From the IMG/VR virus record IMGVR_UViG_3300042355_000388, positions 1-37,763 of that record: 37,763 nucleotides of DNA; one strand, 5' to 3'. Origin of the DNA: a virus. The notes beneath the pieces were generated by a model. It was not told the origin of the DNA, ran no database searches, and saw nothing but the letters and a program-made list of their open reading frames with translations. The translations under genes and the position numbers were made by a program. This document shows, piece after piece, positions 5,588 through 11,376 of the stretch. Numbering within the stretch: the first letter of the stretch is position 1; each line of letters opens with the position of its first letter.

Positions 5588-7135
5588 ATGCTGCGGGTAA
5601 GGGTTCCCGGCTCTGGTCTGTTTTCTGAGCTCCCGACGCAAGTATCTGTTCCAGCCGCCACAATCAGCCTTGCGGCTAGCTCACCCACAATTGTGGCGGG
5701 CAAGAGCGTCATCGCTCCCGCTGTCGCCATCACGCTTTCAACGAACGCCCCGAGCATCTCGGCGGGTAAGAGCATCGCCGCCCCCGCCGCTACGATCTCC
5801 ATCGCCGCGACTGCTCCGGCAATTGGCGCGGGGAAATCGGTATTTATCCCCGCTGTAACGATCCAGGTCGCAGCGTCTGCGCCAGAAGTTCAAACTAGCA
5901 CCGGCATTCAGGGGCTGCTGTTCCTCTTCGCCAATCTCTACGGCACGGCGGCGGTCAACATCCTCGCGCCCGCAGCGACCATCACTATCGCTGCCAACGC
6001 GCCAACCATCCAGACCTCGACTGGCGCAACGGTTACCGTTCCCGCCGCGACGATCAGCCTCGCAGCCAATGCGCCGACGATCAGCGCGGGCAAGGCCATT
6101 TCCGTCCCCACCGCCGCCCTGCTCATGGGCGGCGAGGTTCCGGCGATCCGGACCGGCAAGAGCGTCGCCATCCCGGCCGCGACGATCAGCCTCGCGGGCA
6201 GCGCTCCGGCGATCAGCGCGGGCAAGCGTGTCGCGGTTCCGGCGGCGACCATCGCGCTGTCGGCAAGCGCTCCGGCCGTCTCTGTCGGCGACGCCATCAC
6301 CGTTCCCGCCGCCACGATCACGCTGGCGGCGATTTCCCCGTCCGTGGCGAGCGGAAAGAGCGTCGCCGCACCTTCTGCCACCATCACGCTCTCTGCCGCG
6401 CCACCGACCATCCAGGCGGCTTCCGGCATCAGCGTGGATGTTCCCGCCGCCAACATCCTCCTCGGCGGCGAAGCGCCGTCGATCTCGGCGGGCAAGAGCA
6501 TCGCCGTCCCGATCGCATCTGCCCAGGTTCTCGCGGCGCTTGCGCCGCAGCTGGCGGCGGGCAAGTCCATCGCGGTCCCTGCCGCCACCATCACGCTCAC
6601 CGCCGCGTCTCCGACGCTCGCAGCGGGCAAGGCCATCGAGGTCGCCGCTGCGGCCATCGCCATCGGCGGCATCCCGCCGCGCATCCAGCTTATCGCGCCT
6701 CCCGGCACGCTGCGGACGATCAGGGATGCCATCAGGACCGCCTGGGATGCCCGCTGGCCGCATGGAACGACCTACCGGGTACTCTGGCAGCAGAACGACA
6801 ACGAGAGCGTCCCAGAGCCCGGCGAGGCGCGCGCGTGGGTGCATGTCGTGGTGGACTTCGACGGCGAGGACATTCGCGCCTATGCCGGCGGTCGCGAGGC
6901 GTCGGATCGCGAGTGGCGCGGAACGGTCGAGATCCGCGTCATCGCTGAGACGGGCTACGGCGACGACGCCGCGCTCGACCTTCTCGATGACGCGGTCGGC
7001 GTCTACCGCTCGCGCCGCGAAGCGGGGCTGTCGTTCATCGAGGGCTCCACCGAGATCTTCGACAGCGCGACCGAGGACGGCGCGTGGTTCATCCGTGGCA
7101 CAATGATGCCCTGGACGTATGAGTACCGGGCATGA
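5588..7135 (+). CDS. Repeat protein fused to a second tail-terminator domain
   Basis: A 515-residue fusion. Residues 20-368 hold about fifteen tandem repeats of roughly 22 residues with the pattern V/I-x-VPAATIxLxASAPxISAGKS. The fourth is interrupted by an extra segment (about 100-120). Residues 375-515 are clearly homologous to the whole of the next protein (7132-7566): both share 'WDARWPHG-TYRV-W' and matching ends, and this shape fits phage tail-terminator (DUF4128-like) proteins. The gene therefore looks like a duplicated tail terminator that gained a beta-repeat arm. The repeats have no charge clusters or membrane segments and may form a fibre or beta-solenoid on the virion. The stop overlaps the next start (ATGA). 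Confidence 0.75.
   Translation: MLRVRVPGSGLFSELPTQVSVPAATISLAASSPTIVAGKSVIAPAVAITLSTNAPSISAGKSIAAPAATISIAATAPAIGAGKSVFIPAVTIQVAASAPEVQTSTGIQGLLFLFANLYGTAAVNILAPAATITIAANAPTIQTSTGATVTVPAATISLAANAPTISAGKAISVPTAALLMGGEVPAIRTGKSVAIPAATISLAGSAPAISAGKRVAVPAATIALSASAPAVSVGDAITVPAATITLAAISPSVASGKSVAAPSATITLSAAPPTIQAASGISVDVPAANILLGGEAPSISAGKSIAVPIASAQVLAALAPQLAAGKSIAVPAATITLTAASPTLAAGKAIEVAAAAIAIGGIPPRIQLIAPPGTLRTIRDAIRTAWDARWPHGTTYRVLWQQNDNESVPEPGEARAWVHVVVDFDGEDIRAYAGGREASDREWRGTVEIRVIAETGYGDDAALDLLDDAVGVYRSRREAGLSFIEGSTEIFDSATEDGAWFIRGTMMPWTYEYRA
5645..6691 (+). repeat. Array of about fifteen degenerate 66-bp coding repeats
   Basis: The array encodes repeats of about 22 residues, each built from a VPAATI-type strand, a short Leu/Ser/Ala strand, a SAP turn and a SAGKS-type end. 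Unit length varies from 21 to 25 residues apart from one longer unit. DNA identity between units is partial but includes recurring blocks such as ATCTCGGCGGGCAAGAGC and similar. The array could change length by slippage or recombination. Confidence 0.85.
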
Positions 7136-7566
7136 GCCTCAGGACAACCATCCGAACCGAGATCAAGGCTGTCTGGGACGCGCGCTGGCCGCACGGCGAG
7201 ACCTATCGCGTGATCTGGCACGAGAACGCACACCCCGATACGCCGACCCCGGGCGAGGTGCAGCACTGGCTGCACCTGCATGCCGAGTTCTCGCGTGAGG
7301 AGATGCGCGCGTTCGGCGGCGGCTCGCTCGCCAATGAGCGGCTCTGGTTCGGCGCGGTCGCGGTGCGCGTGTTCTCTGAGGTCGGCATCGGTGAAGACGT
7401 CACCCTCGATCTCCTCGATGCCGCCGTCGTGGCGCTCCGCGCGCGGCGCGCGGGCAATCTGACCTTCGTCGGACCTATCGTCGGCATCGCCGACACGACA
7501 CGCTCGAACGGCGCGTGGTATAGTCGCGGCGCGTCGATCCCGTTTCAATATCGCTTCCAGGGCTAA
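7132..7566 (+). CDS. Tail terminator protein
   Basis: A 144-residue protein that opens with a short helix and 'WDARWPHGETYRVIWHEN', followed by strands and the paired helix segment 'DVTLDLLDAAVVALRARR' (about 90-107). This layout (helix, four or so strands, helix) and the position just before the tube gene match the tail terminators of long-tailed phages, which cap the tail tube and join it to the head. It is paralogous to the last 141 residues of the preceding gene. The start overlaps the upstream stop by four bases. Confidence 0.7.
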   Translation: MSLRTTIRTEIKAVWDARWPHGETYRVIWHENAHPDTPTPGEVQHWLHLHAEFSREEMRAFGGGSLANERLWFGAVAVRVFSEVGIGEDVTLDLLDAAVVALRARRAGNLTFVGPIVGIADTTRSNGAWYSRGASIPFQYRFQG

Positions 7567-7578
7567 GGAGACCCGATC

Positions 7579-8835
7579 ATGCCGATCAGTGAAGGCGTGC
7601 AGTCACGCATCGTCTACAAGGCTTACAGCAGCGGGTCGATCACGGCCAACAGCGAGCCGAACACCGCGACCGACCCCGGCACGTCCGGCGGTCAGGTGCT
7701 GCGGCGGGTCTCGTCGTCGCTGAACTTGGTCAAGGATAGCTATCAGTCCGAGGAGATCCGCACCGACCGGCAGATCGCGGACTTCCGCCACGGGCTGCGA
7801 CGCGTCGAGGGCTCGATCTCGGGAGAGCTGTCGCCCGGAACGCAGTTTGAGCTTCTCGTCGCCGCGCACCGCGACTCAGCGGTGTCGTCGCTGTCGCTGT
7901 CGAATACGCAATTCACCAGCGTCACCAGCGACAACTCGACCTCGGCCTTCGTCTTCACTGCTGGCGACCCGGTGACGAGCGGTCTGCGCGTCGGCGATAT
8001 CATCCGCTTCGGCACGCTCGCCGAGACGGCGAACAACGACCGCAACTTCGTCATCCGTAGCTTCGGCGGCACCAGCAATCGCACCGTCACCGTCAGCCCT
8101 GCGCCGACCACCGACGCGGTGGCCGACACCACCTTCACGGTGACGCGCCCCGGCAAGACCACTATCGTCCCGGCCAGCAGCTTCACGGCGCGCAAGTTCG
8201 GCATCGAGGAGTACCGCGAGGATCTTGACCTCTCGCGTCTCTTCACGGAATGCCGCGTTTCCGGCTATTCGATGAGCCTTCCGGCCACCGGCCTCTCGAC
8301 TGTGGAGATCCCGTTCATGGGGCGCAACGCGGTCTCGCTCTCGGCGGGCAGCGCGCCCTATTTCACGGCTCCCACCGCCGCGACGACGACCTCGGCTTGC
8401 GCCTCGGCCAACGGCCTGATCCTGTCGCCGGATGCGGGCTCGTCGCCGCTCGGCATCGTCACCGGCATCGACATCGCTCTCGATCTTGAGGCCGAGATGC
8501 AAGCGGTCATCAACCAAAACATCGCGCCCGAGATCTTCCTCGGCCGCGCGAACGTCACCGGCACGGTGTCGGCGTTCGTGGAAGATTTTGCGTTGTTCAA
8601 CGCCTTCCTCAATGAGAGCGAGCTTCAGCTGATCGTGCGCGTGGACAGTGGCTCGGCGGCGAATGCCGACGCCATCTGCATCTACCTCCCGCGCGTCAAG
8701 CTCGGCGGAGCGGACATGCCGCTGTCCGGCGCGAACGGCCAGACGATCTCGCTGCCGTTCCAAGCGCTGCGCTACACCGGCAGCGCCGCCGGCAGAGACA
8801 CGACCACGATCCGCATTCACGACACGGCGGCTTGA
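7579..8835 (+). CDS. Major tail tube protein
   Basis: A 418-residue protein with the features of the phage tail-tube family (Phage_tube_2 type). It has an N-terminal part 'SLNLVKDSYQSEEIRTDRQIADFRHGLRRVEGSISGEL' that describes the conserved 'S.EI..DR...D.R.G...V.G.i..EL' pattern, then a beta-rich insert near 105-205. The closing part has 'LPFQALRYTGSAAGRDTTTIRIH', typical of the C-terminal strands. Hexamers of this protein form the tail tube. It has its own strong Shine-Dalgarno (AAGGAG about nine bases before ATG), in keeping with high expression, and is followed by the gpG/gpT chaperone pair, as expected. Confidence 0.9.
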   Translation: MPISEGVQSRIVYKAYSSGSITANSEPNTATDPGTSGGQVLRRVSSSLNLVKDSYQSEEIRTDRQIADFRHGLRRVEGSISGELSPGTQFELLVAAHRDSAVSSLSLSNTQFTSVTSDNSTSAFVFTAGDPVTSGLRVGDIIRFGTLAETANNDRNFVIRSFGGTSNRTVTVSPAPTTDAVADTTFTVTRPGKTTIVPASSFTARKFGIEEYREDLDLSRLFTECRVSGYSMSLPATGLSTVEIPFMGRNAVSLSAGSAPYFTAPTAATTTSACASANGLILSPDAGSSPLGIVTGIDIALDLEAEMQAVINQNIAPEIFLGRANVTGTVSAFVEDFALFNAFLNESELQLIVRVDSGSAANADAICIYLPRVKLGGADMPLSGANGQTISLPFQALRYTGSAAGRDTTTIRIHDTAA

Positions 8836-8837
8836 GC

Positions 8838-9257
8838 ATGTCGCGTTTCTCTGGTCTCGGCGCGTCGGTGGACAAGCCGACGCGCTGCTATCTCTCGATC
8901 CCCGTCGCCGGTCGTCCGCCGCTGTTGTCGCGCGACGGCGATCCCGCCTACATCGACTGCCTGTCGCTCGACAGCCGCGAGGCTGGCGCGCAGCGTCGCG
9001 CATCCGCCATCGCGCGCCTCGACCGTCGCGCGGCGAAGCTGACTGCCGATGACATCGAGGCCGAACAGGTCGGGATGCTGGTGGCGCTCATCACCGGCTG
9101 GCGGCTGTACTCGCTGGCCGGCGATCCGCTCGACGTCGAGTGCGACGAAGCGGCGAAGCGCGAACTGATGAGCGATCCGACCTTCGCGTGGGTCCGTCGC
9201 CAGGTCGAGGAGCATATAGGCGATCTGGGAAACTGGTTGAGCGCGACGGCGAACTGA
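8838..9257 (+). CDS. Tail assembly chaperone, short form (lambda gpG-like)
   Basis: A 139-residue helical protein between the tube and tape-measure genes, where lambda encodes gpG (140 residues). The ATG at 8838 lies two bases after the tube stop. Its last codons contain the heptamer GGGAAAC read as G GGA AAC at 9227-9233, and the zero-frame stop (9255-9257) sits in the loop of a strong hairpin. Most ribosomes should finish here and a few should shift to make the longer product. The protein probably coats or recruits the tape measure during tail assembly, as known for gpG/gpGT. Confidence 0.85.
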   Translation: MSRFSGLGASVDKPTRCYLSIPVAGRPPLLSRDGDPAYIDCLSLDSREAGAQRRASAIARLDRRAAKLTADDIEAEQVGMLVALITGWRLYSLAGDPLDVECDEAAKRELMSDPTFAWVRRQVEEHIGDLGNWLSATAN

Positions 9258-9595
9258 TCGCCTTCGCGCATCACCGTTTCGACCTGGACTTGCCGCGCAA
9301 GGGCGGTCGCAAACGCGACCACCTGGAGAGTGTCGCGCGGCAGCTAGGACGCCGCCCTGCGGGCCTCGACGGGCCACCGTTGCCCGCCTGGGGCGAGCAT
9401 ATCTGGTCGGCGTGGCTGGATCTCCACCAGGGTCGCCGCGTCGGCTTCAACGGTTGCGAGCCGCTGTCCTGGGCCGATCTCGACGCATGGTCGAGGCTGA
9501 CCGGCGCGGAGATGCGGCCTGACGAGGTGGCGCTTCTGATGCGGATAGATCGCGAGTTCTTCGCCGTGCGCGGCGAGATTGAGGGACGGAAATGA
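8838..9595 (+). CDS. Tail assembly chaperone, long form by -1 frameshift (gpGT-like)
   Basis: Reading 132 codons of the short form and then slipping back one base at 9227-9233 gives a 252-residue protein. The shifted part begins 'LVERDGELIAFAHHR' and ends '...GEIEGRK' at 9595. The shifted frame has good codon usage over its whole length. It has no convincing start of its own: the in-frame ATG at 9140 gives an unnatural Arg/Gly-rich lead-in that lies inside the short-form gene. The C-terminal part is Trp- and charge-rich, as in the T domains that bind tube and tape-measure proteins. The long-form stop overlaps the tape-measure start (ATGA). Confidence 0.82.
9227..9269 (+). promoter_or_regulatory. 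Programmed -1 ribosomal frameshift signal
   Basis: The slippery heptamer GGGAAAC (9227-9233) is in the required X XXY YYZ phase. After a 7-base spacer comes a hairpin: 9241-9246 pairs perfectly with 9264-9269, and, after a one-base mismatch on each side, 9248-9252 pairs with 9258-9262, leaving a 5-base loop. Lambda uses GGGAAAG at the same gene boundary. Spacer, phase and direction of shift all agree with the open frame downstream. Confidence 0.88.
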
Positions 9596-11376
9596 TCAAC
9601 GCGCCGAAAGAATCGGTCCTCCGCGCTGGCCTCGACGCGAGCGAATACACGCGCGGCGCACAGGAGATCGACAGGGCAAACACCGAGATCTCCGCGAGCA
9701 GCGGCCGGGTCGAGCAGTCTCAGGAGAAGATGACCCGCTCGCTGGTCTCGTCTTCGTCCAGCATGGATCGCCTCCAGGCATCGCTGGACAAGGGCTTCGC
9801 CTCGCAGCTGCGTTACGAGCAGATCGTGGATCGCGTCAACTCCGCGATGGAACGCGGGCGCATCTCGCAGGAGCGTGGCGCGCAGATCATCAGCCTCGCA
9901 CAGCAGCGCTACATGTCGGCCGCGACGGCGACTGCGGCGATGGGAGCGGCGACTGCGGCGGCGGCGACATCGAGTAGACAATTCGGCTTCATCGCGCAGC
10001 AGTCCGGCTATCAGGTTGGCGACTTCGCCGTTCAAGTCGCAAGCGGTCAGTCCGCGATGGTCGCGTTTATCCAGCAAGGTTCACAGTTCCTCGGGATCTT
10101 CGGGGCATTCGGCGCAGTCGCTGGTGCCGCGCTCGCCATCGGCGGCGGCATCTACATGATGTTCGACAAGATGGCCGAGAACGCGAAAGCGGCGACAGAC
10201 GAGGTCTCTTCCTTGACGGAAGAGATCAAGCGCATGAGCGAGGAGAGCGCGAAACGCGGCGCGGGGCAGACGGGCATTCGTGCGAATGTCATGCTTGAAG
10301 ACCGGATGGCAGAGCGTCGCCGTCTTGTCGGAATGCTGCCGACTGGTGGCGGCGGTGCAATGGCGTCGAGCGAGATGTCAGGCATAGTCGAGGCGCAAGC
10401 AGCATCCGAGGTCGCGCGCATTCAGTCGCAGATCGATGCCATCGACAAGCTCATTCGCGAGTACGACCGGCTCGTCATCGAGCAAGAGCGCGCCGATGAA
10501 AGCACCGCGAACCTCAAGCGACGCGGCGAGGAGTTCGAGGAGCAGAAGAAGCGCGAGGCCGAGGCCGTCCGCGACGCCGCTCGCGCGCAGGAAGAGGCCG
10601 AGCGCGCGCGCCAGCGCTTCCTCTCCGATGTCATGTCCCTAGAAAACACCCTCGATCCGCTGACCGCCGCGACACGACGCTGGGCCGATCAACAGGCGCT
10701 GCTGGCCCAGGCGCTCGACGCCGCGATCATCAGCCAGGAGCGGTACAACGAACTGGTCGCGATGTCGGACGAGGCGTTCCGCAAGGCGACCGAGAAACAG
10801 ACCGAATACCTGACCGGCATCGAGAAGCAGTCGCGGCAGAACGAGAACCTCGCACGCGATCTCGGGCTATCCTTCCAGTCTGCTTTCGAGGACGCGATCT
10901 TGCGCGGCGAGAAGCTGCGCGGTGTGCTGGCCGGGATCGCGCAGGACATCGCGCGCATCATCCTGCGCCAGACGGTCACGACGCCGCTCGCCGGTCTCGT
11001 CATGGGCGGGCTTTCCAGCGCACTCGGCGGCCTATTCGGCGGCGGGCCAGGCGACATTCGCGGGCCGGGCGGCTCGACCAGCATCCCGTTCGGCGGGCCT
11101 CGCGCTCTCGGCGGTCCGGTCGAGGCGGGCAGCGCCTATCTGGTCGGCGAGCAGGGGCCGGAACTGTTCATGCCCGGTCAGTCGGGCCGCATCATCCCGA
11201 ACGGACAGACCGGCGGCACCGTGGTCTATCAGACCATCAACATTTCGACCGGCGTCGCCCAGACCGTGCGCGCCGAGATCGCCGCGCTTATGCCGGCGAT
11301 CAAGCGCCAGACCGTCGATGCGGTGGCGGACGCCAGGATGCGCGGCGGATCGTTCGCAGCTGCGATGGGGACCTGA
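9592..11376 (+). CDS. Tail tape measure protein
   Basis: A 594-residue protein, the one long helical protein after the chaperones. The N-terminal part (1-130) is charged and heptad-like. A hydrophobic Gly/Ala stretch at about 150-195 ('FLGIFGAFGAVAGAALAIGGG') looks like the membrane-inserting part used at DNA entry. Long coiled coils follow (about 265-345, rich in Glu, Arg and Ala), then a Gly-rich C-terminal region with 'GYLVGEQGPELFMP'-type sequence ('SAYLVGEQGPELFMPGQSG'), a common end of tape measures. At roughly 1.5 angstrom per residue the tail should be about 90 nm, which is on the short side for a siphovirus. Confidence 0.92.
   Translation: MINAPKESVLRAGLDASEYTRGAQEIDRANTEISASSGRVEQSQEKMTRSLVSSSSSMDRLQASLDKGFASQLRYEQIVDRVNSAMERGRISQERGAQIISLAQQRYMSAATATAAMGAATAAAATSSRQFGFIAQQSGYQVGDFAVQVASGQSAMVAFIQQGSQFLGIFGAFGAVAGAALAIGGGIYMMFDKMAENAKAATDEVSSLTEEIKRMSEESAKRGAGQTGIRANVMLEDRMAERRRLVGMLPTGGGGAMASSEMSGIVEAQAASEVARIQSQIDAIDKLIREYDRLVIEQERADESTANLKRRGEEFEEQKKREAEAVRDAARAQEEAERARQRFLSDVMSLENTLDPLTAATRRWADQQALLAQALDAAIISQERYNELVAMSDEAFRKATEKQTEYLTGIEKQSRQNENLARDLGLSFQSAFEDAILRGEKLRGVLAGIAQDIARIILRQTVTTPLAGLVMGGLSSALGGLFGGGPGDIRGPGGSTSIPFGGPRALGGPVEAGSAYLVGEQGPELFMPGQSGRIIPNGQTGGTVVYQTINISTGVAQTVRAEIAALMPAIKRQTVDAVADARMRGGSFAAAMGT

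Follow-up and report, generated by a model that had tools for sequence, protein, structure and literature searches.

Overlapping G and T frames in a phage tail module

The window, by which we mean the whole 37.8-kb virus record that was analysed, derives from a siphophage with a tail-gene module, in which the genes for the tail terminator, tail tube, G, T, tape measure, distal tail protein and central fibre follow one another in this order. The tail terminator (7132..7566, + strand) was recognized by a match to phrog_179 (E = 4.7e-7), the tail tube protein (7579..8835, + strand) by matches to Pfam Phage_tube_2 (E = 1.6e-24) and phrog_290, and the tail tape measure protein (9592..11376, + strand) by a match to phrog_1538 (E = 4.7e-33). 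The terminator gene adjoins a second gene (5588-7135) with which it has a tail-terminator domain in common (45% identity over 138 residues, E = 2e-42); the product of this second gene carries an N-terminal extension of ~370 residues built of repeats like VPAATISLAANAPTISAGKS, and a terminator duplication of this kind, with repeats added to one copy, appears unusual.

Between the tail tube and tape measure genes lie two overlapping open reading frames, the second in the -1 frame relative to the first. The upstream frame, G (8838..9257, + strand; 139 aa), is assigned as the zero-frame tail assembly chaperone by its position and by weak family matches: it resembles the phrog_313 tail assembly chaperone weakly (E = 0.022), and its profile matches the G proteins of Bradleyvirinae-type phages moderately (E = 5e-5, probability 67%). 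Its start is taken as the ATG at 8838, with the TTG at 8832 as a possible alternative. The downstream frame, T (9233..9595, + strand; 120 aa plus stop), matches Pfam Phage_TAC_18 (PF23812; E = 6.5e-17, 61.9 bits compared with a curated cut-off of 27), shows codon periodicity in its own frame, and is predicted to be translated as the C-terminal part of a GT fusion. As a preliminary description of this DNA had stated, the shifted frame runs for 120 codons up to the tape measure gene, its end (9595) overlapping the tape-measure ATG at 9592.

A slippery heptamer followed by a hairpin

Near the 3’ end of G we found the slippery heptamer GGGAAAC (9227-9233, + strand) in the phase G_GGA_AAC, position 9228 being in the codon phase of the ORF at 8838-9257, such that the zero-frame codons at the site are GGA and AAC. 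GGA is the rarest glycine codon (6%), and no close relative swaps it for another codon. A spacer of 7 nt (TGGTTGA, 9234-9240, + strand) separates the heptamer from a probable stimulatory hairpin (9241-9269, + strand), whose arms, GCGCGACGGCGA (9241-9252) and TCGCCTTCGCGC (9258-9269), form a stem of 12 positions, 11 of them paired and one a C-U mismatch, closed by a 5-nt loop (9253-9257). The zero-frame stop of G, a TGA (9255-9257, + strand; TAA in some relatives), is situated inside this loop. The phase of the heptamer, the spacer, the hairpin and the stop in its loop had all been described previously, with coordinates that our analysis reproduced exactly. The 42 nt 3’ of the heptamer (9234-9275) fold with a minimum free energy of -23.4 kcal/mol (z = -4.7 compared with dinucleotide shuffles), and a stable structure is thus present within the range of 5-9 nt past the heptamer, the 7-nt gap matching that of known frameshift signals.

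GGGAAAC is the sole in-phase XXXYYYZ heptamer within the G ORF, and a scan of 3063 codon positions in nine tail genes detected no second one in which Y is A or T. Among 20,000 codon-shuffled versions of the G ORF, such a heptamer occurred anywhere in the overlap in 1.6% and in the final 60 nt in 0.4%; in 0.06% it preceded a fold at least as stable as -20 kcal/mol. In a stricter control that preserved both encoded proteins the mean fold was -18.8 (sd 2.6), and 2.8% of the sequences were at least as stable as the observed one, so that the stability of the hairpin is partly a by-product of coding and G+C bias.

Conservation of the signal among close relatives

T and G, used separately as queries, each matched 56 viral loci. 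We compared 26 distinct sequences spanning both genes, among them one contig of a metagenome-assembled genome (MAG) and one clade at only 76% G and 87% T identity. A scan of genomes yielded a single close match, a contig of the unclassified MAG Proteobacteria bacterium UBA964. In the 56 metagenomic contigs matched by T, which correspond to the 26 distinct sequences, both frames stand in the identical -1 relation. The notion that the heptamer and hairpin arose together by chance, or that a sequencing frameshift has split a single long ORF, is refuted by this shared arrangement; together with the chance of about 0.06% given above for a heptamer and a strong fold, it leaves that notion practically negligible.

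The heptamer is invariant and all 11 stem pairs are intact in each of the 26 sequences, whereas 3 of the 7 spacer sites vary. Only 1 of 24 stem sites is variable (a G-C to G-U change that keeps the pairing), compared with 6 of 12 in the spacer and loop (p = 0.003, Fisher), a difference to which amino-acid constraint on the stem sites also contributes. This single pair-preserving change is the only one of its kind, and no two-sided compensatory change was found in the stem among the close relatives.

The pattern of substitutions changes frame at the same place. Up to the heptamer, 89 of the 129 variable sites fall at third positions of the G frame, while past the hairpin 77 of 108 fall at third positions of the T frame; the preference changes over cleanly from window 9200-9244 to window 9245-9289. 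This switch locates the frame change at the heptamer without reference to the sequence of the heptamer.

T could alternatively be a separate gene, translated from an internal start or by ribosomes reinitiating downstream of the G stop, in which case the heptamer would be incidental. Consistent with this, a T-frame GTG at 9140, upstream of the heptamer, is invariant in the 26 sequences; however, it lacks a Shine-Dalgarno sequence, and upstream of the heptamer substitutions track the G frame only, so that initiation at 9140 would translate a stretch without selection in the T frame. The stretch from the heptamer to the T domain contains no start codon that is conserved in the close relatives, and none with a clear Shine-Dalgarno sequence: position 9290 of the T frame begins a CTG in most close sequences, and the first ATG occurs at 9512.

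Turnover of the slippery sequence in distant relatives

At the DNA level, GenBank phages matched the window only over short segments of the genes for tail tube and tape measure, and G alone, used as a protein query, had no match in these phages; more distant relatives were therefore sought through T. A tblastn search with T returned 100 phage records from GenBank (E ≤ 0.01), and we sampled 25 GenBank phages with a T homologue, some of them from a wider list than those 100 records. In 21 of the 25, G and T stand in the -1 relation with a strict in-phase XXXYYYZ sequence near the junction, mostly TTTTTTC; the junction carries GGGAAAC in Pm86 and RcXuper and GGGAAAG in 1152AP2. Nearly all metagenomic relatives at 41-53% identity likewise combine the -1 arrangement with a strict slippery heptamer at the junction, in their case GGGAAAC, GGGTTTT, AAATTTC or TTTTTTG. 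The -1 arrangement and its position are thus conserved among the relatives of T while the slippery sequence turns over.

A strict junction heptamer was absent in CRP-6, L212, L218, Tlacuache and P26059A. Roseobacter phage CRP-6 (locus L112, 1980-1986) and L212 (about 1478) have GGATTTT at the junction, G and T being still in the -1 relation, and AAATTTT is also among the slippery sequences found across the T-domain relatives (loci L112, L113, L114-L136 and L185-L216). Pseudomonas phage PaMx28 (L122, about 880) was considered as a +1 case and rejected; its T-run is one T shorter than those of its relatives, which possibly reflects a sequence error.

In many GenBank relatives the T domain is annotated as a separate downstream hypothetical protein, as would be expected if T were an independent gene. 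The recurrence of a slippery sequence at the G/T junction of distant relatives argues against such a gene, as does the lack of a conserved start described above, and we regard independent expression of T as very improbable.

The hairpin has a narrower distribution than the frame arrangement. No significant hairpin follows GGGAAAC in the distant loci L185, L194 and L127 (z from -0.7 to +0.5), which include relatives at about 52% T identity, and the structure is thus restricted to the near clade rather than shared across the family. The comparison of relatives proposed in the preliminary description therefore bore out both heptamer and hairpin in close relatives, whereas in the wider family the hairpin was missing and the slippery sequence varied.

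These loci, with GGGAAAC at the equivalent place, also accord with a reading in which the frameshift is real but owes nothing to the hairpin, its rate being set by the heptamer, either by itself or together with another element; so does the partial origin of the hairpin's stability in coding. Against it stand the low variability of the near-clade stem relative to spacer and loop, tempered by the amino-acid constraint noted above, and the spacing typical of known signals. We consider this reading rather unlikely, and it touches only one part of the frameshift explanation, being compatible with the rest.

A predicted lambda-type G/GT frameshift

Taken together, the locus very probably encodes a programmed -1 ribosomal frameshift of the lambda G/GT type, as judged from sequence comparison. 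The G/GT frameshift of lambda is itself well established and widely conserved. As in lambda, the genes run tail tube, G, T, tape measure, a -1 shift lies near the 3’ end of G at an XXXYYYZ heptamer, and the overlapping T frame has no start of its own. The proteins themselves match Phage_TAC_18 and, weakly, phrog_313, and are likened to those of lambda by their arrangement. Unlike in lambda, a strong hairpin is present here with the G stop in its loop, and the heptamer ends in C, whereas that of lambda (G_GGA_AAG) ends in G. The G/GT assignment made earlier is upheld by gene order, protein families, the periodicity switch, close conservation, the distant -1 arrangement and the annotation of Acinetobacter phage DMU1 (MT992243), in which gpG/gpGT is recorded as a joined frameshift product. 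DMU1 and Bradleyvirinae-type phages have a homologous T (33-37% identity), a weakly similar G and the shift at the same place, with TTTTTTC instead of GGGAAAC.

The earlier characterization of the heptamer as slightly different from that of lambda holds for its last base, but the sequence is not new for this gene pair: G_GGA_AAC was already reported for the g-t frameshift of the haloarchaeal virus HCTV-1 (PMC5009743), which has the identical heptamer and gene pair in an archaeal host, a likeness drawn from the published heptamer. Pasteurella phage Pm86 and Rhodobacter phage RcXuper have T homologues with GGGAAAC in phase at the junction, and lack a hairpin like the present one (RcXuper, fold z = +0.45; Pm86, a different fold, z = -2.0). 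The lambda-type mechanism is likewise well known.

From the observed signal, frames and conservation we infer the following course for the slip, its efficiency and the roles of the products. Most ribosomes would translate G (8838-9257) to its end and be released at the TGA of the loop. In a smaller fraction, the hairpin would slow the ribosome while GGA occupies the P site and AAC the A site; these ribosomes would slip back by one base onto GGG and AAA and continue in the T frame, producing a GT fusion of ~252 aa with the junction ...DLGN-LVERDGEL.... By analogy with lambda, G and GT would serve as tail-assembly chaperones, the G part binding the tape measure and the T part recruiting the tail tube protein.

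For E. coli, A_AAA_AAC is reported to shift less readily than A_AAA_AAG (PMC5009743), and by this analogy a heptamer ending in AAC may be a weak slippery site, although the host here may differ. One speculative idea, which we think improbable, is that this lineage-specific hairpin, whose loop contains the G stop, adjusts the G:GT ratio in connection with termination and so compensates for a weak AAC slippery codon; for example, terminating ribosomes might alter how often the hairpin closes for the ribosomes that follow.

For an uncultivated phage group represented by many metagenomic contigs, in which automatic annotation would miss the GT fusion, the gene pair can be annotated correctly as G and GT. 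A fixed site with a changing slippery sequence, moreover, provides a useful set for studying how slippery codon, RNA structure and host tRNA trade off against one another.
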